Source of the DNA: a virus
Strand: one strand, 5' to 3'
Length of the DNA: 38,572 bases
Virus record (IMG/VR): IMGVR_UViG_3300024280_000008
Span: 1 to 38,572 of that record
The notes under the pieces were generated by a model. It worked only from the letters and a program-made list of their open reading frames with translations, did not search any database and had not been told where the DNA came from. Position numbers and translations under genes: made by a program. Positions 6,634 to 31,541 of this stretch are shown piece after piece (position 1 is the first letter of the stretch; each line of letters starts with the position of its first letter).

Positions 6634-6822
6634 ATGATTATCTCAAAAAACGCAGTCGCAATCTTAGTACTATTTCTATCATTTATCGGTCTAGAGGTTA
6701 CAGAAGACGGTCTATGGGAAGTGGTCTCAGCAATCACAACCATCGTTTCATTTGCTGTGATGATTTGGAATCAAGTTAAAAGAACAGATGTGTATAACTT
6801 CATCTTCAAGAAAAAGGACTAG
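6634..6822 (+). CDS. Holin-like small membrane protein
   Basis: 62 aa, 2 bp after the HExxH gene. Two predicted transmembrane helices (about residues 5-21 and 27-46) with a short acidic turn (EVTEDG) and a basic C-terminus (FKKKD), typical of class II phage holins such as the r1t type. It would open the inner membrane at lysis; context agrees. Confidence 0.7.
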   Translation: MIISKNAVAILVLFLSFIGLEVTEDGLWEVVSAITTIVSFAVMIWNQVKRTDVYNFIFKKKD

Positions 6823-6824
6823 TG

Positions 6825-6830
6825 TATACT
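6825..6830 (+). promoter_or_regulatory. Promoter for a short RNA (TGTATACT)
   Basis: Extended -10 just after the holin stop. The predicted start falls at 6836-6838, the first base of a perfect hairpin. Confidence 0.4.
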
Positions 6831-6835
6831 GTAGT

Positions 6836-6910
6836 TACTAGCTCCAAGCTAGTACGTTCCCCTTGAATAAAGAACACTTTTGACACATGCACCCCGAAAG
6901 GGGTGTTTTG
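6836..6910 (+). ncRNA. Candidate small RNA, about 75 nt
   Basis: It begins at a perfect 8-bp hairpin (6836-6843 with 6847-6854, loop CCA) placed where the upstream TGTATACT would start transcription, and ends at the terminator at 6890-6909. No ORF of note inside. The inverted repeat could instead be an operator. Confidence 0.4.
6890..6909 (+). terminator. Intrinsic terminator with GAAA tetraloop
   Basis: CACCCC/GGGGTG stem (6890-6895, 6900-6905), GAAA loop, then TTTT. Ends lysis-cassette transcription. Confidence 0.85.
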
Positions 6911-6917
6911 TGTATGC

Positions 6918-6923
6918 TAAAAT
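6918..6923 (+). promoter_or_regulatory. Leaderless promoter for the 41-aa acidic gene
   Basis: TGCTAAAAT with 7 nt between the -10 and the ATG at 6931, so transcription should start at or next to the ATG. Confidence 0.6.
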
Positions 6924-6930
6924 TAGTGTA

Positions 6931-7056
6931 ATGGCTAGACCACTAACAGACGACATAGCAGACGACTGGTTCTCTGAGGACAGGGGAAAGCATGTTGATA
7001 GTGAAGAAGATGATGAGTGTGACTGGGACAGTATGGACGACAAAGATGACCAATAG
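6931..7056 (+). CDS. Acidic 41-aa miniprotein
   Basis: Own terminator-insulated leaderless promoter and a bidirectional terminator right after the stop support it as a unit. About 16 of 41 residues are Asp/Glu (DSEEDDECDWDSMDDKDDQ), so it could be a DNA mimic or an inhibitor of a host DNA- or RNA-binding protein (inference). No known family recognised. Confidence 0.6.
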   Translation: MARPLTDDIADDWFSEDRGKHVDSEEDDECDWDSMDDKDDQ

Positions 7057-7084
7057 AAAAGACCGCTACTATGCGGTCAATTCT
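7057..7084. terminator. Bidirectional terminator between convergent operons
   Basis: GACCGC/GCGGTC stem (7061-7066, 7073-7078) with A4 on the left (T4 for the minus strand) and a T-rich right flank. It separates the + genes from the minus operon ending at 7085. Confidence 0.8.
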
Positions 7085-7363
7085 TTATCTTAAAGCTAGC
7101 ATATTGTGAGTGTAGCAAACCCAATCATTCCAACCGTTTCGCTCGTACAGAATACGCGCGTATTTAGTTGCGTCTACTGGATTAAATTTATCTAATCCAA
7201 GACGTGCTAGCTCTTTGTCATGAACAGAATTTATCTGCCATAAACCTCCATCTGTACTACCATTTTTGTTGTTACCGTTGTACGCGCCAACGTGTAAGCC
7301 CGACTCACAAGTTGCAATGGCAACGGCTGTGTGTGGGTCTTCGTGAAAGGTCTCTCGTATCAA
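7085..7363 (-). CDS. Lysozyme/transglycosylase-like domain protein (TTG start or TGA readthrough)
   Basis: 92 aa from a TTG codon. It contains 'ATCESGLHVGAYNGNN' with the catalytic Glu of the lysozyme-like/SLT fold, 'STDGGLWQIN' and a C-terminal 'GWNDWVCYTHN', the plan of small phage lytic transglycosylases. There is no ATG or GTG start. The frame is continuous with the gene at 7388-7690 apart from one TGA (7388-7390), with nine sense codons between that TGA and the TTG. It therefore either starts at TTG with only weak AAGG upstream, and lacks any export signal, or is the C-terminal half of a membrane-anchored enzyme. Acts on peptidoglycan. Confidence 0.75.
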   Translation of the reverse strand: MIRETFHEDPHTAVAIATCESGLHVGAYNGNNKNGSTDGGLWQINSVHDKELARLGLDKFNPVDATKYARILYERNGWNDWVCYTHNMLALR

Positions 7364-7387
7364 TCGCTTTAGCCGACCTTGTTCTCT

Positions 7388-7690
7388 TCAATAATCTGGG
7401 TTCTTAATAGTCGCCTCAATTTCAGCGATATATTCCTCTTTAACACTATCAGCTACTTTCGTCATTTCCGCGTCGTATAGGGCATTATATGCCTCTACAG
7501 CGCGTGCTTCGATGTCTGCCTTAGCTTTCTCTTGTGCTTCGGCAATTCTTTTATCTAATGACTGTATTTCTACAATCTTTTCTACCTCTACGACTCGTTC
7601 TGGTACGATTACTTGCGTACTAGGAACGAAATAAAGTACACCTCCAATTATTACTCCCAACATCGCTATCCCTGCGATGATTAGTTTCAT
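7388..7690 (-). CDS. Membrane-anchored coiled-coil protein (spanin-like, or anchor half of the lysozyme)
   Basis: 100 aa. The ATG at 7690 was chosen because the sequence starts MKLIIAGIAMLGVIIGG, an N-terminal transmembrane/signal-anchor helix; the upstream extension crosses a hairpin. Residues 35-98 are charged and helical (VEVEKIVEIQ...AKADIEARAVEA), the layout of Rz-like inner spanins and of anchored stalks. It ends in TGA, and the lysozyme domain continues in the same frame. Expected location: inner membrane with the coiled coil outside. Confidence 0.7.
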   Translation of the reverse strand: MKLIIAGIAMLGVIIGGVLYFVPSTQVIVPERVVEVEKIVEIQSLDKRIAEAQEKAKADIEARAVEAYNALYDAEMTKVADSVKEEYIAEIEATIKNPDY

Positions 7691-7755
7691 GGTGTTTGTT
7701 TTTATATGTTTAAGTCTGAGTTTCCTAACTATCAAACGAATCTGATAGGGGTTAT

Positions 7756-7779
7756 AAAAGAGCATCTACGACGATGCCC
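7756..7779 (-). terminator. Terminator-like hairpin in the leader of the lysozyme operon
   Basis: On the minus strand a 7-bp stem with one G-U (7779-7773 with 7766-7760) and TTTT follow only 13 nt after the -10 at 7792-7797 and come before the ATG at 7690. It could be an attenuator or the end of a very short RNA. Confidence 0.5.
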
Positions 7780-7791
7780 TCTTACCTTATA

Positions 7792-7797
7792 ATTATA
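7792..7797 (-). promoter_or_regulatory. Promoter of the minus-strand lysis operon
   Basis: TTGGTATAAT on the minus strand. Two abutting DnaA-box-like 9-mers (7824-7841) lie 26 bp upstream of it. Confidence 0.65.
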
Positions 7798-7823
7798 CCA
7801 AGTTGTGAGCGTGTCTGGCCGAG

Positions 7824-7841
7824 TTATACACAGTATCCACA
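7824..7841 (+). promoter_or_regulatory. Tandem DnaA-box-like sites
   Basis: TTATACACA (7824-7832, fits TTATNCACA) directly followed by GTATCCACA (one mismatch). They lie 26 bp upstream of the minus-strand -10 at 7792-7797. Confidence 0.55.
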
Positions 7842-7847
7842 AGACCG

Positions 7848-8132
7848 TCAAACTCTCATCATTCCTCGAATCTTCTCCATTTCTTCTGGGTAACGTGTTG
7901 CCATGTATAGCATCGCCTCAGTGTCCTGTAAGCGCTCTTTAACGTCTGCTAGCTCCTGGAATAGCGCCATATCTGGGTCGCTCACTTCTTTCTTTTTCTG
8001 TAAGTCTTTATACTTTTTTAGTAGTGACTGCGCGTATATATCCTTTCCAATCAATGCTTGTTTAAGCAGTCTGATTTCCTCGTCATAAGACAAGACCATG
8101 TTTCGGTATGCTTCGTGAAATTTACTCTCCAT
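7848..8132 (-). CDS. Coiled-coil hypothetical protein, 94 aa
   Basis: The ATG at 8132 was chosen because a TATACAAT box ends 7 nt upstream (leaderless); the longer frame overlaps another gene. Highly charged and helical (ESKFHEAYRNMVLSYDEEIRLLKQ, KKYKDLQKKKEV). No family recognised. It sits between lysis-type genes, so a role there or as a small regulator is possible. Confidence 0.65.
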   Translation of the reverse strand: MESKFHEAYRNMVLSYDEEIRLLKQALIGKDIYAQSLLKKYKDLQKKKEVSDPDMALFQELADVKERLQDTEAMLYMATRYPEEMEKIRGMMRV

Positions 8133-9410: not shown

Positions 9411-10667
9411 CTAGAAGTTGTGAGTGAAGCGAGCGATTTGTCCTTGGTCTAGGTCGTGGACAAATGCTTCAACAGCAGGAATGTTGATGTAGTTTTGTTG
9501 GGCGTGCCAAGCGTCAGCCTCCGATGGAGAGCGTACCGTTTCGACATGCACTAGATTGCCATTGTTCTTGCCCTTAGCAATCATCACCACACCATTGTAG
9601 TCTTTTTCCTTTGGCCCTTTACGGCCATTGCCCTGTTCGTACACCATTTTGTGGTGCTTATCACCTTGGTAACAATAGGTGAAGCGTGTTTGACCGAGGG
9701 CCGAACGAGCTTCCTGCATAACGCTACCAATAACTGCGTCTACTTTGCTGTCACCATGTTGGAACATGATGAGGTTGTCGCCGTAGACAAAGTACTTACG
9801 TGGAGTATTAGCCAGGACTTCTTTTTTGAAGTGGACTCGCTTGTTATTCCACAGGCGGTTCGCAATCATCTGCGATACAGACCAACCCGAGAGTCGGTCA
9901 TGGTTCGAGCTGACATGCGTAAGCCAGACGTCATGATTCTTCGTGAGAGCTTCGATATACTTGACGTACATCTCGACCGCCAGAAGCATCATGGATTCGA
10001 CACTGCTGGTAGCGTCTTGGGGCGTGCCGTTGGTGGTCGTGTACTTGTTGCTGTCCACATGAATGATGTCGTTCCCAAGAGGGAGTAGAACATCAGTGAT
10101 TCCAAGTGGCTTGGCATACTCGTAAAGGCGAGCTTGACCTTCCATAACGCGACGGACTGCTTCATCCGAGCTATATGTGCGGTCAGTGCGAACTTTCTCA
10201 CACAGTTTACCAATGTGAACATCGAAGTTGGCAGGAACCAACAGACGATGGTGCTTGTAGCTCACCCTTTGTACAGGTGGGCTTTCAGCGCGTAGGCGAG
10301 CCATGAAGTTCTCAATGGCTTGTTGGTCGTTGACGATGGCTTCGGTGTTAACGAAGTAGCTAGAGTAATCTTTGGTTTTGTGCCAGAAAGCACGCCAAAG
10401 GTCGAATGGAAGATTGTTCTGCTCACAGTGGAGACGGAACGCAGCTTCCTGCTGGTCGCTAGGCTTAGACATTTCACTATCTCCTTTCAATGAGCTGTCT
10501 GCATCTATTTTACCACGATGAGCGTTGTCTCTATTTGGGTGCTCCAGACCCATTTTCTTTGCTCGCTTTATTACGTTTGTTTTGTTCCGCCCGACAATCC
10601 TACAAATCTCTCTTATTGATAAGCCTCTATTGTAACCATCACGTATCTGTTGGTTAATGTTTTCCAT
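9411..10667 (-). CDS. HTH-metallophosphoesterase fusion
   Basis: 418 aa from a leaderless ATG (10667, 7 nt after TATAAT). Residues 12-42 form a resolvase/transposase-like helix-turn-helix (LSIREICRIVGRNKTNVIKRAKK). From 145 on there is a calcineurin-like phosphoesterase: D149-x-H151, GND 198-200, SNHD 254-257, HGD 304-306 and GDKHH 335-339 give the five metal-binding motifs. Phage members act on nucleic-acid phosphoesters; the substrate here is unknown. A strong internal SD (AAAGGAGAT) precedes Met66 at 10472, so a second product without the HTH is likely. Confidence 0.85.
   Translation of the reverse strand: MENINQQIRDGYNRGLSIREICRIVGRNKTNVIKRAKKMGLEHPNRDNAHRGKIDADSSLKGDSEMSKPSDQQEAAFRLHCEQNNLPFDLWRAFWHKTKDYSSYFVNTEAIVNDQQAIENFMARLRAESPPVQRVSYKHHRLLVPANFDVHIGKLCEKVRTDRTYSSDEAVRRVMEGQARLYEYAKPLGITDVLLPLGNDIIHVDSNKYTTTNGTPQDATSSVESMMLLAVEMYVKYIEALTKNHDVWLTHVSSNHDRLSGWSVSQMIANRLWNNKRVHFKKEVLANTPRKYFVYGDNLIMFQHGDSKVDAVIGSVMQEARSALGQTRFTYCYQGDKHHKMVYEQGNGRKGPKEKDYNGVVMIAKGKNNGNLVHVETVRSPSEADAWHAQQNYINIPAVEAFVHDLDQGQIARFTHNF
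10472..10489 (-). promoter_or_regulatory. Internal ribosome binding site before Met66 of the phosphoesterase
   Basis: AAAGGAGAT 8 nt before ATG on the minus strand, one of very few true SDs in the genome; predicts a shorter isoform of 353 aa. Confidence 0.6.
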
Positions 10668-10674
10668 TACTCGT

Positions 10675-10680
10675 ATTATA
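10675..10680 (-). promoter_or_regulatory. Leaderless promoter of the phosphoesterase
   Basis: GGTATAAT on the minus strand, 7 nt from the ATG. A TTATCCACA (10707-10715) lies 26 bp upstream. Confidence 0.65.
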
Positions 10681-10706
10681 CCCTTGACAAATACGACGAA
10701 AAACAG

Positions 10707-10715
10707 TTATCCACA
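10707..10715 (+). promoter_or_regulatory. DnaA-box-like site TTATCCACA
   Basis: Perfect match, 26 bp upstream of the phosphoesterase -10, in the same orientation and distance as the site at 7824. Confidence 0.5.
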
Positions 10716-10723
10716 AGTATTAC

Positions 10724-10775
10724 AAAAAATCCCCTTGTGAGGGATTTCGTGTCTGCGAAGCGCGGCCTGCCTGTC
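10724..10775 (-). ncRNA. Candidate short RNA, about 50 nt
   Basis: A minus-strand TGCTACAAT (10782-10787) predicts a start near 10775, and a strong terminator (AAATCCC/GGGATTT, then TTTTTT) ends it at about 10724. No ORF. The rest of the gap up to 10882 shows no convincing gene. Confidence 0.35.
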
Positions 10776-10882
10776 TTGGTTATTGTAGCATATCGTGGGC
10801 TATTAAAGGGGGACAGTCGTTTGGGTTTAGCGCCATGCACGGCTGACTGCTTGCATACACCCCTTTAGTAACCAGCGATACC

Positions 10883-12218: not shown

Positions 12219-12319
12219 ACAATCAAAGCAATTACTGTGCTGATAATAATTCCGAGAATAAACCCTGCTCTGAATCCTGAATTTCTACTTTTCTCTACGT
12301 CATTTCCTGTGTAGCTCAT
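12215..12319 (-). CDS. 34-aa single-pass membrane miniprotein
   Basis: MSYTGNDVEKSRNSGFRAG followed by one transmembrane helix (FILGIIISTVIALIV). ATGA overlap with the next gene supports translation. Confidence 0.55.
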   Translation of the reverse strand: MSYTGNDVEKSRNSGFRAGFILGIIISTVIALIV

Positions 12320-12329
12320 ACATCAAAGA

Positions 12330-12464
12330 TTAAGTAATAAGTTCAATAACAATCATTGCTAGTAATATACCAACACCTCCCCACATCAATACGGGTATTG
12401 CACCCATTAGAAGCCCTGTACCAAACATAAGGATTTTTATTTGTTGGTTAGTTAGTTTCGGCAT
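12330..12464 (-). CDS. 44-aa two-helix membrane miniprotein
   Basis: MPKLTNQQIKILMFGTGLLM followed by hydrophobic, Gly-rich helices (GAIPVLMWGGVGILLAMIVIELIT). Stop 11 bp before the next gene. Unknown function; early membrane protein, perhaps acting on superinfection. Confidence 0.55.
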   Translation of the reverse strand: MPKLTNQQIKILMFGTGLLMGAIPVLMWGGVGILLAMIVIELIT

Positions 12465-12487
12465 AAGTTATGGATTAAGTAATAAGT

Positions 12488-12712
12488 CTAGTAAGTTTTA
12501 GTTGAACCCTCTCCACTACTACCCACTCTTGCGTCTGTTTCTGAATAGCCCGCGTTTTTTACTCTCTCGTAAAGAGTTTTGTCAGTTTCAAGGTTTCTTT
12601 CAACTGGACTCATTATTTCTGACAGTTCATTCACTCGGTCTATAATTCGATTGATTGTTGCCTGTGTCGTGTAGTCGTGGGTTGGCTCTGATAATTTTTC
12701 TAGTTTCTTCAT
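12488..12712 (-). CDS. Hypothetical protein, 74 aa
   Basis: ATGA overlap with the 77-aa gene. Helical middle (INRIIDRVNELSEIM) and a Gly/Ser-rich tail (ARVGSSGEGSTKTY). No family recognised. Confidence 0.65.
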   Translation of the reverse strand: MKKLEKLSEPTHDYTTQATINRIIDRVNELSEIMSPVERNLETDKTLYERVKNAGYSETDARVGSSGEGSTKTY

Positions 12713-18193: not shown

Positions 18194-18736
18194 ATGAAGA
18201 GGTCAGGCTTCAAACAGAAATCTTTTAAAGAAGTAAAAGAAAAGCTACTTAAAAAGCAAGCCGTTAAGCGTGAGTACAATAAACTAGGAAAGTTAAAGTC
18301 TAGAACCCCCCTCAAGAGCCACACAAGCCCCAAGGTTAAGAGTAAACGTAAGACAAAGGAAAAGACACAGGCCAGTCTTAAAAAAGACCTAGATGCCATC
18401 TTTTCAATTTACATACGAACTATCTTTCCTAAAGTTTGTTACACCTGTAATAAGCCGTCAGACAGACTCCAGTGTGGTCACTTCATCTCCAGACAATACC
18501 TAGTTACAAGGTGGAGTGTTGACAACTGTCGACCTCAGTGTTGGGGTTGCAACGGCTACGGAAAAGGACAAACCTTAATCTTTGAGGAAAACTTAAAACG
18601 AGAATATGGGAACGATTTTGTTGAAGCAATGAAAGCGAGCAGACATCAGACGATGAAAGTAGATAGAGTTTGGTACCGCGAACAAATAGAAATGTATAAG
18701 AAGAAGTTATCAACAGCCCAACCATTACACTCTTAA
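18194..18736 (+). CDS. ninG: NinG/Rap-like recombination protein
   Basis: 180 aa. Basic N-terminus (residues 1-65), then the NinG signature: C82-x2-C85, C94-G-H96, 'FISRQYLVTRWSVDNCRPQCWGCN' with C112, C116 and C119, and 'FEENLKREYG'. Lambda NinG (Rap) is a DNA structure-specific endonuclease that stimulates recombination; the zinc-binding HNH-like core is intact here. It fits the ERF/SSB system on the other strand. Confidence 0.85.
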   Translation: MKRSGFKQKSFKEVKEKLLKKQAVKREYNKLGKLKSRTPLKSHTSPKVKSKRKTKEKTQASLKKDLDAIFSIYIRTIFPKVCYTCNKPSDRLQCGHFISRQYLVTRWSVDNCRPQCWGCNGYGKGQTLIFEENLKREYGNDFVEAMKASRHQTMKVDRVWYREQIEMYKKKLSTAQPLHS

Positions 18737-18747
18737 CAAATCCAAAC

Positions 18748-18753
18748 TATACT
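18748..18753 (+). promoter_or_regulatory. Leaderless promoter for the 54-aa gene
   Basis: TATACT with 7 nt to the ATG at 18761. Confidence 0.45.
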
Positions 18754-18760
18754 TACAGTA

Positions 18761-18925
18761 ATGAAAGATTTATTAGAGCGTTTGGACATACTCATGATGA
18801 TACTAAACAACATGCATGAGAATGAACAGATTAAGTCAAAACATTATCGGGAGTTGGTAGACCAAGTAGAAAGATTACGGGAGATGGTAAGTAATTTATA
18901 TGGAAATGAAACAAATATTAGCTAG
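18761..18925 (+). CDS. 54-aa coiled-coil miniprotein
   Basis: MKDLLERLDILMMILNNMHE...ELVDQVERLREMVSNL is a heptad-like helix. Overlaps the next gene by 26 bp. Unknown function. Confidence 0.5.
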   Translation: MKDLLERLDILMMILNNMHENEQIKSKHYRELVDQVERLREMVSNLYGNETNIS

Positions 18926-20584: not shown

Positions 20585-22030
20585 ATGGAACTAGAGTTCA
20601 AAACAAAGAACCAGCGCCAGCTAGAAGCGGTAGAAGCGTGGATTGACTCTACTACTGATGAGATTCTTTACGGTGGTGGTAAGGGTGGTGGTAAGTCTTA
20701 CCTCGGTGCTTCTCTCATCTTTGGTGATGCGTTGATATACCCCGAAACACATTACTTTATTGCACGCGCTGAGCTAACAGACTTGCGAAAGTTTACAATC
20801 CCTACTATTCATGAAGTGTTTAAGAACTGGGGATTAAAAATAGATGACTATATGTCATTTAACGGACAAGATAACTGCTACACGTTAAAGAACGGCTCAA
20901 AGGTTTATTTGTTGGCGTGTAAGGAAATACCAAGTGACCCACTATACGAACGCTTTGGTTCTATGCAGATGACCCGTGGTTGGATTGAAGAAGGAGGAGA
21001 AATAGCAGAAGCAGCTAAAAGTAACCTTTGGCTTTCTATTGGTCGTTGGAAGAACGCCGAGTATGGCCTAAAAAAGAAACTACTAATCACAGCAAACCCC
21101 AAGAAAGGCTGGATGAAGCGAGACTTTATTGATTTATGGAAAATAGACTTGTTACCCAAAGGGAGAAAGTTTATTCAAGCCCTTGTTACCGATAACCCGT
21201 ATCTACCAGAAGATTACGTTGAGACACTAAGAAACGAAAAGGACACAGTTCGCCGTCAACGTCTATTTGAGGGTAATTGGGATTACGACGAAGACCAAGA
21301 CAGTCTAATTACCTTTGATGCTCTTACTGATGCTTTCAGTAATCCAGTAGTTAAAGATGGTGAGAAATACCTAATCATTGACGTTGCGAGACTTGGGCAG
21401 GACTCTACTGTATTCGCTTTCTGGGATAGTTTGGAATTGTACAAAATAGAACAGTTCCACAAACAAGATACGCAGACAACAATTCAAAAAGCGAAAGATA
21501 TGGCTAGAGCTGAGAATATCCCTTATTCTCATATCATCATCGACGAAGATGGTATTGGTGGTGCTGTAGTTGACGGTATGTTTGGAGTAAAGGGATTTAT
21601 AGCTAACAGTACGCCACTTCCAACGGCCTCAGAAGTACGTGCAAGAGATAGGAAAATAGAGAGTTTCCTAATACCTAAACGAAACTTTGCTAACTTAAAG
21701 ACTCAGTGTGCTTTTAAGTTGGCGGAACTAATAAACGAACACAAAATTGTATTTAATGTTCCTAAATATCGGGACATTATCATCGAAGAACTAACAGCTC
21801 TATTGCGCCAGAAAGATATAGACAGCGAGGGTAAGTTACGAATACGACCCAAAGAGGATGCAAAGCTAGAGCTAGCACGCTCACCCGACATTGGAGATAC
21901 GATTATTTACCGCGCATGGTTTGAATTACAGAAAGACTTTGTTGATGACTCGCCAGAAAGACAACAAGCACGTTCAAACATCAGCAATCAATTCAAGATA
22001 ACTCTAGGAGAGCTTAACAGCGCGAAATGA
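20585..22030 (+). CDS. terL: Terminase large subunit
   Basis: 481 aa, normal length. Walker A is GGGKGGGKS at 30-38, with two Lys; Walker B-type 'GWIEEGGEI' at about 132-140; the C-terminal RNase H-like nuclease shows 'LIIDVARLGQDSTVFAFW' and 'IIDEDGIGGAVVDG', the acidic metal-binding strands. ATP-driven translocase and headful/cos cutter at the portal. Ends in an ATGA overlap with the SET gene. Confidence 0.95.
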   Translation: MELEFKTKNQRQLEAVEAWIDSTTDEILYGGGKGGGKSYLGASLIFGDALIYPETHYFIARAELTDLRKFTIPTIHEVFKNWGLKIDDYMSFNGQDNCYTLKNGSKVYLLACKEIPSDPLYERFGSMQMTRGWIEEGGEIAEAAKSNLWLSIGRWKNAEYGLKKKLLITANPKKGWMKRDFIDLWKIDLLPKGRKFIQALVTDNPYLPEDYVETLRNEKDTVRRQRLFEGNWDYDEDQDSLITFDALTDAFSNPVVKDGEKYLIIDVARLGQDSTVFAFWDSLELYKIEQFHKQDTQTTIQKAKDMARAENIPYSHIIIDEDGIGGAVVDGMFGVKGFIANSTPLPTASEVRARDRKIESFLIPKRNFANLKTQCAFKLAELINEHKIVFNVPKYRDIIIEELTALLRQKDIDSEGKLRIRPKEDAKLELARSPDIGDTIIYRAWFELQKDFVDDSPERQQARSNISNQFKITLGELNSAK

Positions 22031-29570: not shown

Positions 29571-31541
29571 ATGAGAATACCATCAGATAGAAACTGGACA
29601 CAGACTAATGAATCTGACTCGCTCGGAGTGTTGAATGAAACTAAAAACATTACCATAGAAGCTGGTAATAAAATTATTAGTACACGTAAACCATACGCGC
29701 ACTTACACACAGACGGACAAGCTAATCTTGGATATATTTTAGCTATTAACTACTACGATAGTGACTATATTGCAGTCACAACAAACGAAGCATTTAGATT
29801 CTCACTTTCTACAAACTCTGCTACGGAAATAGCGTCTGCTCCAAACTTTGCGCAAAACTCAGACGCGGTTATCTGCTACAACCGCCTCTATACTTCTATT
29901 AATACAAACCTTTCGTATTACGACGGCTCTAGTTGGACAAACTCTATTGAAACCCTAATTACTGACGTACCCCACCCACTAGAAGTATTTGATTCATTAA
30001 CGACATATAAGCTCGCTGTTGGAAACGGAAGTGTTGTGCTTCTTATTGACTTAAATGGTAACGATTCCGGCACTTTCCTTACCATACCTGCACAGTTTCA
30101 AGTAACTACAATGCGTTACAGAAACGGCTATCTTTACGTTGGGACAAGAAATATCTACGGCGGAGAAGCACGTATCTTTGTCTGGAATGGTTCAGGCTCT
30201 AACGCCCAATATGAAATCCCCACAGGCGCTTCATGGGTGTTTTCAATGACCCCTTATCTAAGTACTGTTGCTTGTATGTTAGACACAGGTCAACTTATTT
30301 TAATAAACGGCTCAACCCCACAAGAATTAGCCGCGCTTCCTGTGTACTACACCCCAAACGTAACATGGCAAGGTAGTGGTGGACTACAGGTTAACGGCAA
30401 AGTCTTTAATCGCGGAATGGCTACAGTTGGAGATAATATCTATATCAACATAGATGGTGATTGTGATTTAGGAATCAACCATCAAATGAAGTCTGGATTA
30501 TGGGTATACAGCCCTAATAACGGGCTATGGCATACAGCACAATCATCTAATGACCGACTAATACGAGACACTGGCTTTTCTGTAACTAACTCTATCTTTA
30601 CTACATCAGCGACTCATTACTTAAAGACTGGAGACGCCGTTCAATTTACTACAGTCTCAGGACTTTCAGGAGATGTTGACGAGGGTGTCCCTTACTACGT
30701 CAAGGTTGAAAGCACAACCACATTTAAGTTAGCACTGTCTCGAAAGGCGTTGCAAGCTGAGGAATATATAACAGTTAGCGGAACAATGTCGGGTGACGTT
30801 CTGCTTTATGTACAAAATAGAGATGTTGGTGTTCAAGTGAACACAAGCGCAGGAGCTATTGGTCTCATCACTTCAAAAGAAGCACCACCAGAAATATTTG
30901 CAGGTGACGTTATGTTTGGTTCACGTGTAACAGACTTAGAGGGCGATAACAAATACACTATCCAGTTATTCTCTAATTCGTACTCAGTAAGTTCAGCCAC
31001 CACACAGAAAATCTACACCGATAACATTAAACAAAACTGGAAGAAACTATACGGCTTTCTTTCTGGCTGTTTGTTAGATAATGAGGAAATAGTCGTTAAA
31101 TACAAGAACTCCGACGAACTAGGCTACCCAACTAAAGTATTTGAGGGTGTTTGGTTGAGCGAAAATCAAATCAATACTGCTTCTGATACTCGAGATGAGT
31201 TTGATTGGAGTGACATTGAAATCGGTGACGAAATCACATTAGTTAATAGATACGGAAGAGGATACAGCGCACACGTTACCGCTAAAGAAACGGCCGCGCT
31301 CACTACTACTCTAACCATTGACGAAAGTATCGGAACAGCTAATGAATCCGTTTACTTATACGCAGATAATTTTAAGAAACTAGGTGTGGTAAATAATCAG
31401 CGACAAGATAAGAACTTCTTTGAAGTTGCTTTAATGAATATTGCTTCGCCTTGGGTACAGCTAAAGTTAGAGATGCGAGGATTCCAGATAGAAATAGACA
31501 TGCTTGATTTAGCTAACGCCGTCAATCAGTCAAGTGATTAA
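29571..31541 (+). CDS. Tail beta-propeller protein, P22 gp10-like
   Basis: 656 aa. ATG 29571 was chosen because it follows the previous TAA by 1 nt; the upstream frame overlaps that gene. Repeated WD-like blades: 'YYDSDYIAVTTNEAFRFSL', 'YNRLYTSINTNLSYYDGSSWTN', 'YRNGYLYVGTRNIYGGEARIFVW'. The C-terminal part is a distinct beta domain. By order it is the tail hub or packaged-DNA stabilising protein of a podovirus. Confidence 0.7.
   Translation: MRIPSDRNWTQTNESDSLGVLNETKNITIEAGNKIISTRKPYAHLHTDGQANLGYILAINYYDSDYIAVTTNEAFRFSLSTNSATEIASAPNFAQNSDAVICYNRLYTSINTNLSYYDGSSWTNSIETLITDVPHPLEVFDSLTTYKLAVGNGSVVLLIDLNGNDSGTFLTIPAQFQVTTMRYRNGYLYVGTRNIYGGEARIFVWNGSGSNAQYEIPTGASWVFSMTPYLSTVACMLDTGQLILINGSTPQELAALPVYYTPNVTWQGSGGLQVNGKVFNRGMATVGDNIYINIDGDCDLGINHQMKSGLWVYSPNNGLWHTAQSSNDRLIRDTGFSVTNSIFTTSATHYLKTGDAVQFTTVSGLSGDVDEGVPYYVKVESTTTFKLALSRKALQAEEYITVSGTMSGDVLLYVQNRDVGVQVNTSAGAIGLITSKEAPPEIFAGDVMFGSRVTDLEGDNKYTIQLFSNSYSVSSATTQKIYTDNIKQNWKKLYGFLSGCLLDNEEIVVKYKNSDELGYPTKVFEGVWLSENQINTASDTRDEFDWSDIEIGDEITLVNRYGRGYSAHVTAKETAALTTTLTIDESIGTANESVYLYADNFKKLGVVNNQRQDKNFFEVALMNIASPWVQLKLEMRGFQIEIDMLDLANAVNQSSD

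Follow-up and report, generated by a model that had tools for sequence, protein, structure and literature searches.

A conserved in-frame UGA between a membrane anchor and a lysozyme domain suggests programmed stop codon readthrough in phages

A membrane-anchored coiled-coil protein and a lysozyme domain share one continuous reading frame in the phage DNA analysed here, interrupted only by a single UGA, and comparison with homologues shows that this stop codon is real and conserved and makes it probable that it is a site of programmed readthrough. The window (the whole stretch of DNA that was analysed, a virus record of 38,572 bases) also encodes a terminase, a connector-like protein and a head protein. 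An earlier note had described a 100-residue anchored coiled coil that ends in TGA with its frame running on into a lysozyme, and this arrangement is confirmed on the minus strand (Table 1). Under standard table-11 ORF calling the membrane helix and the enzyme lie in separate ORFs, and they form one polypeptide only if the UGA is read through.

In a low-confidence model, the anchor consists of an N-terminal membrane helix (approximately residues 3-20) and a long, charged coiled-coil helix (approximately residues 33-95), and its ORF was kept by the hydrophobicity filter used in the blind scan described below. The lysin gene converges with a neighbour encoding an HExxH motif, both in the window and in the related records IMGVR_UViG_3300006920_000103 (G17) and IMGVR_UViG_3300033553_000148 (G002); the motif reads HEQDH in the window, HELMH in G17 and HEVMH in G002. 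By this motif only, the neighbour may be zincin-peptidase-like, and it gave no Pfam match.

Table 1. Coordinates of the anchor-lysozyme gene and of features around it in the window.
Feature	Position	Strand	Basis
Anchor ORF, 100 aa, expected major product	7391..7690	minus	ATG at 7690; translation
In-frame UGA, proposed programmed readthrough site	7388..7390	minus	equivalent position in 5/5 distinct homologues
Conserved junction nucleotides TAY TGA AG	7386..7393	minus	5/5 homologues; 0/207 other TGA-ended ORFs in 32 records
Lysozyme domain, c-type-like fold, SLT_3, 100 codons	7088..7387	minus	Pfam; model pLDDT 89; c-type lysozymes at Z ~11
First helix of the lysozyme fold, codons 2-13 after the UGA	7349..7384	minus	model and fold alignment
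TTG, sole candidate start for a separate lysozyme, inside the first helix	7361..7363	minus	homologue comparison
Putative catalytic Glu codon, residue 129 of the readthrough product	7304..7306	minus	invariant E28 in nine-lysozyme alignment
TAA ending the lysozyme frame	7085..7087	minus	translation
Presumed leader	7691..7797	minus	TATAAT box at 7797-7792, then hairpin and T-run at ~7782-7757; direct sequence reading
Convergent neighbour with HExxH, 240 aa	5909..6631	plus	syntenic marker in G17 and G002

A search for close relatives with the window protein alone returned no homologues. Among 16 terminase-relative loci, one record (IMGVR_UViG_3300020043_006244, G12) contained a homologue, and relatives of the head protein (80 of 122 kept) led to G17; each of the two carries a single TGA at the equivalent position. 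In the head-protein set 5 of 50 records matched, the four other than G17 being single-ORF lysozymes, and 37 further records contained no homologue. When viral_contigs was searched with a stop-blind pattern, only G12 and G17 were found, and in an alignment search of the same collection only G12 was among the matches listed. The alignment search of genome_contigs gave no match, and the six stretches that a relaxed stop-blind pattern drew from it were discarded by eye, none being a lysozyme. A looser pattern, which required the TGA and left its neighbours free, returned seven stretches: G12, G17, L187 and the near-identical L191 (records G89 and G91), L190 (record G90), and L188 and L189, which are not lysins. 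Finally, a profile built from five rows matched 6 of 50 records, all six with a single TGA; G91 is the only one of them that was not already a row of the profile. Neither P0004 in phages nor P0005 in plasmids gave a match. We also note, with regard to the terminases, that one carries a frameshift (L010:2207-3648) and that in another (L017:2-2113) the 357 matching residues are spread over 2.1 kb, which would fit an insertion.

The homologue comparison that had been proposed as a check was thus run on the window, G12, G17, G89 (with G91 near-identical) and G90, and the TGA stands at the equivalent place in all five distinct sequences, which form approximately two clusters and two of which were found with the TGA-requiring pattern. 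The spacing from TGA to the putative catalytic Glu is exactly 28 codons in 5/5, at pairwise identities of 16-43% for the anchors and 37-76% for the lysozymes. The head protein of G89 is only 28% identical to that of the window, and the search gave no head protein for G90. No homologue with a sense codon at the junction was found in stop-blind searches that were narrow or covered chosen records. In the head-protein clade, single-ORF lysozymes with a membrane helix or signal-like N-terminus (helices judged by eye) occur in G061, G060, G030, G052, G028 and G041; since several phages carry such single-ORF proteins, lysozyme anchoring seems to be ordinary in the clade. As judged from these sequences, the stop is a peculiarity of the long-coil type among the clade's anchored lysozymes.

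The part of the frame behind the TGA matches Pfam SLT_3 (PF18896; E 1.9e-9, 38.3 bits against a cut-off of 27) and also SLT. The whole-protein model is poor (pLDDT 51.6), and the fold was therefore assessed only from a model of the lysozyme domain based on nine sequences (pLDDT 89), in which residues 2-13 after the UGA form a helix. The best ten rows of a structural comparison are c-type lysozyme fold matches (Z ~11, rmsd 2.6-2.9, 94-97 residues aligned), among them 1zvh_L (Z 11.1, rmsd 2.8, 95 aligned), and the c-type lysozyme alignments begin at model residue 1 or 2, model residue 2 corresponding to their residue 4. The predicted structure is thus a c-type-like lysozyme fold, and its putative catalytic Glu is invariant in the nine-lysozyme alignment. 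Protein-level constraint extends right up to the stop: in codons 1-8 after the TGA, differences summed over ten pairs fall 27/20/62 at codon positions 1/2/3, and the BLOSUM score per pair is 16.8 in frame versus -5.0 and 6.0 in the other frames. The in-frame score was reached by 1 of 5000 column permutations, and by 0 of 5000 when the AGN codon was left out. Local recoding, one of two explanations offered by the earlier note, is well supported by these results, since metagenome assemblies made independently of one another keep the TGA, and the codons that follow it show protein-level evolution.

The nucleotides around the stop are also conserved. The context TAY TGA AGN is present in 5/5 distinct homologues, with the A that follows the UGA (+4A) giving a leaky context in every case. 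The residue after the stop is Arg in four and Ser in one, always encoded by AGN, which are rarer codons: AGR makes up 135/380 Arg codons in the window, 70/413 in G12, 118/368 in G17 and 82/280 in G90, and AGY makes up 140/478 Ser codons in G89. AG would occur in all five with a probability of ~0.002 if independence is assumed, although the sequences are not independent. Y-TGA-AG occurs at six lysin junctions (five distinct) and at 0 of 207 other TGA-ended ORFs in the 32 records. No conserved stimulatory RNA structure was found at the junction. When the first 48 nt were compared with synonymous draws, only G17 stood out (0/500 draws as stable); the fraction as stable was 0.60 for the window, 0.20 for G12, 0.14 for G89 and 0.13 for G90. 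The RNAalifold energy was -6.5 kcal/mol, its covariation term +1.2, and a conserved stimulatory stem-loop was rejected as unproven, one of five sequences having beaten its synonymous draws.

The presumed leader, read directly, contains no SD-like site upstream of the ATG at 7690. The TATAAT box, hairpin and T-run at 7757-7797 of the minus strand may be an attenuator or else the terminator of the preceding gene. SD-like sites are few throughout these genomes (window 3/34, G12 1/38, G17 3/30, G002 0/33, G89 0/31, G90 1/24), although AAAGGAG sites are present before some genes. Conversely, TATAAT lies within 20 nt of the ATG in 2/43 ORFs of the window, 4/44 of G12, 4/38 of G17, 6/43 of G002, 3/40 of G89 and 1/34 of G90, where 0.003-0.007 is expected. 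The excess of TATAAT near ATG together with the few SD-like sites suggests leaderless transcripts in the window and its relatives.

The reading that competes most directly with readthrough is that two proteins are made: ribosomes would terminate at the UGA, a soluble lysozyme would arise by reinitiation at TTG or GTG or by independent initiation, and the anchor would be a separate holin- or spanin-like lysis protein. We regard this as unlikely. It draws on a TTG at the ninth codon in the window, G17 and G90, a purine-rich stretch after the UGA, the AAAGGAG sites, GTG starts, which seem to occur in the clade, and the i-spanin-like layout of the anchor; in G12, its best case, AGGAGT followed by GTG forms a fair reinitiation site behind the TGA. 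As the earlier note had stated, the lysozyme has no ATG or GTG in the window, where the TTG at 7363-7361 is the only start candidate between the TGA and the Glu; the codons in between are indeed sense codons, but they number eight rather than the nine it had counted. The start is not conserved, however: the leucine codon is CTT in G12 and CTG in G89, no ATG, GTG or TTG is common to the homologues, and G89 has none before codon 24. Codons 1-8, which precede the TTG position, evolve as protein, and according to the model the TTG lies in the first helix, most of which a start there would cut away. Initiation of a soluble enzyme at the TTG, as the earlier note had envisaged, is weakened because the codon is absent from two of the five homologues and because of the damage to that helix. 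The rarity of SD-like sites also counts against two proteins, and reinitiation provides no reason for the kept frame and the exact spacing in 5/5. On the basis of the sequences and the domain model, we favour in-frame readthrough over reinitiation.

A general reading of UGA as an amino acid by the host or phage, whether under code 4 or 25 or by means of a suppressor tRNA, would make the gene one ORF but is improbable. Phages are described in which stop-codon recoding affects genes for lysis and structure (PMC10879173), but TGA terminates 213 of the 1215 non-overlapping ATG ORFs found in the 32 records, including ends whose homologues have TAA. The terminase of the window ends in TGA (at 22030) and those of G002 and G12 in TAA, in keeping with the earlier note's statement that TGA serves as a real stop elsewhere; G17 30607-31140 (TGA) and window 18194-18736 (TAA) match over almost their whole length, and G12 12226-12504 and 21031-21456 (TGA) match TAA-ended window genes. 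No tRNA genes were found in the window or in the examined parts of G12, G002, G17, G89, G90 and G91, so that neither hallmark of genome-wide stop recoding, reassignment in many genes or a suppressor tRNA gene, is seen. Another form of local recoding, a ribosome hop over the UGA or selenocysteine insertion, has a very low probability in our estimation: sequence alone does not name the inserted residue, but there is no Rfam match at E<=1 within 6800-8000 and no shared hairpin. The chance of a sequencing error or a recent nonsense mutation is close to negligible. The window by itself could not have excluded an error, but the same TGA recurs in assemblies from different metagenomes whose lysozymes are only 37-76% identical, which refutes this explanation and with it the mutation that had been offered as the alternative to recoding.

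A variation on the same arrangement may be present in G002. Beside its HExxH gene, at the syntenic place (L023:12067-12728), a membrane/coiled-coil ORF of 101 aa in G002 ends TCT TTT TAA, and directly behind it, in the -1 frame, lies a different SLT lysozyme (4.4e-6) with no ATG, GTG or TTG before its ESQ motif. A search of phages with the G002 lysin gave no match. Homologues with two genes in different frames had been named as an observation that would speak against readthrough, and G002, the only example, agrees with that in part; its lysozyme is start-less as well, and the other five are all in frame. Because of the missing start, we favour a possible frameshift in G002 over two separate genes. 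It is perhaps a second recoding solution, a -1 frameshift, but the case is a single one and the T run may hide an assembly indel. When 29 records were scanned blind for a membrane ORF with a long start-less frame directly after it, ten rows came out, four of which are lysins (window, G12, G17 and G002); the other six (G17 6871, G47, two in G53, G65 and G58) were judged by eye to be spurious or ordinary. Three further extensions were taken as ordinary: those past TAG at G17 352-1611 and G61 18311-18916, where the following exonuclease-like and head-protein frames, respectively, have a GTG, and an in-frame one at G46 10570-10788, where a later ATG is present. We tentatively raise the possibility, which we hold to be somewhat less than even, that the anchor-lysozyme junction is a recurrent recoding site, the two lysozyme clusters relying on readthrough of UGA and G002 on a shift to the -1 frame (U UUU UAA); selection would then act on how much anchored enzyme is made relative to anchor, as a translational dose or timer of lysis, and would have been answered by two decoding tricks.

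In the proposed mechanism, most ribosomes would stop at the UGA, and their product would be a periplasmic coiled-coil protein held by its membrane anchor. In some ribosomes a near-cognate tRNA, with tRNA-Trp the likeliest, would decode the UGA, aided by the following A, and translation would continue into the lysozyme domain to give an anchor-lysozyme fusion. The anchor would carry the fusion across the membrane, where it could be built into coiled-coil oligomers in a small and constant proportion and so might dose or time the cutting of peptidoglycan at lysis. The residue inserted is probably Trp. Near-cognate decoding by tRNA-Trp is favoured because UGA followed by A is described as particularly prone to misreading by this tRNA in E. 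coli (PMC5289835) and because Qbeta A1 is made by Trp readthrough.

If this is true, tailed dsDNA phages set the ratio of anchor to anchored lysozyme by a single conserved leaky stop while leaving the code unchanged, and recoding is linked directly to the control of lysis. Gene callers would break such lysins up, listing a protein without known function and a fragment that lacks a start, and the device would therefore be missed elsewhere. The junction also offers a compact natural UGA context for studies of bacterial readthrough.

SAR and membrane-anchored endolysins use an N-terminal membrane helix to export a lysozyme; unlike these, the lysins described here have a conserved stop between anchor and enzyme, and the anchor has a long coiled coil. 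The i-spanins such as Rz are short proteins with an N-terminal membrane helix and a periplasmic coiled coil, but here the frame of the anchor continues into a lysozyme. Among the matches listed for the open-access literature on endolysin or lysozyme readthrough, membrane-anchored endolysins, and endolysin or holin frameshifting, we recognised nothing as this anchor-UGA-lysozyme device, and in the accessible portion of the review PMC5009743 lysozyme and endolysin are nowhere mentioned. Stop-codon recoding phages (Borges et al., 2022, cited in PMC10879173) likewise have a stop inside a lysis-type gene, which is proposed to regulate lytic functions. In those phages the whole code is changed and suppressor tRNAs are involved, whereas here there is a single conserved site, UGA is otherwise a stop and no tRNA genes were found.

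The closest parallel is the coat/A1 gene of Qbeta, in which the UGA follows a Tyr codon and precedes an A. As there, a phage gene contains an in-frame UGA, with a major short product and a proposed minor, C-terminally extended one; the features of A1-type readthrough found here are a conserved stop between coding parts, constraint without a conserved start, normal use of the stop elsewhere and +4A. The Qbeta minor coat protein A1 is described as arising by UGA readthrough with Trp at approximately 1 in 15 (PMC8067240). Whereas that case concerns a capsid protein of an RNA phage, the product proposed here is a membrane-anchored lysozyme of dsDNA tailed phages with terminase, connector and head genes.
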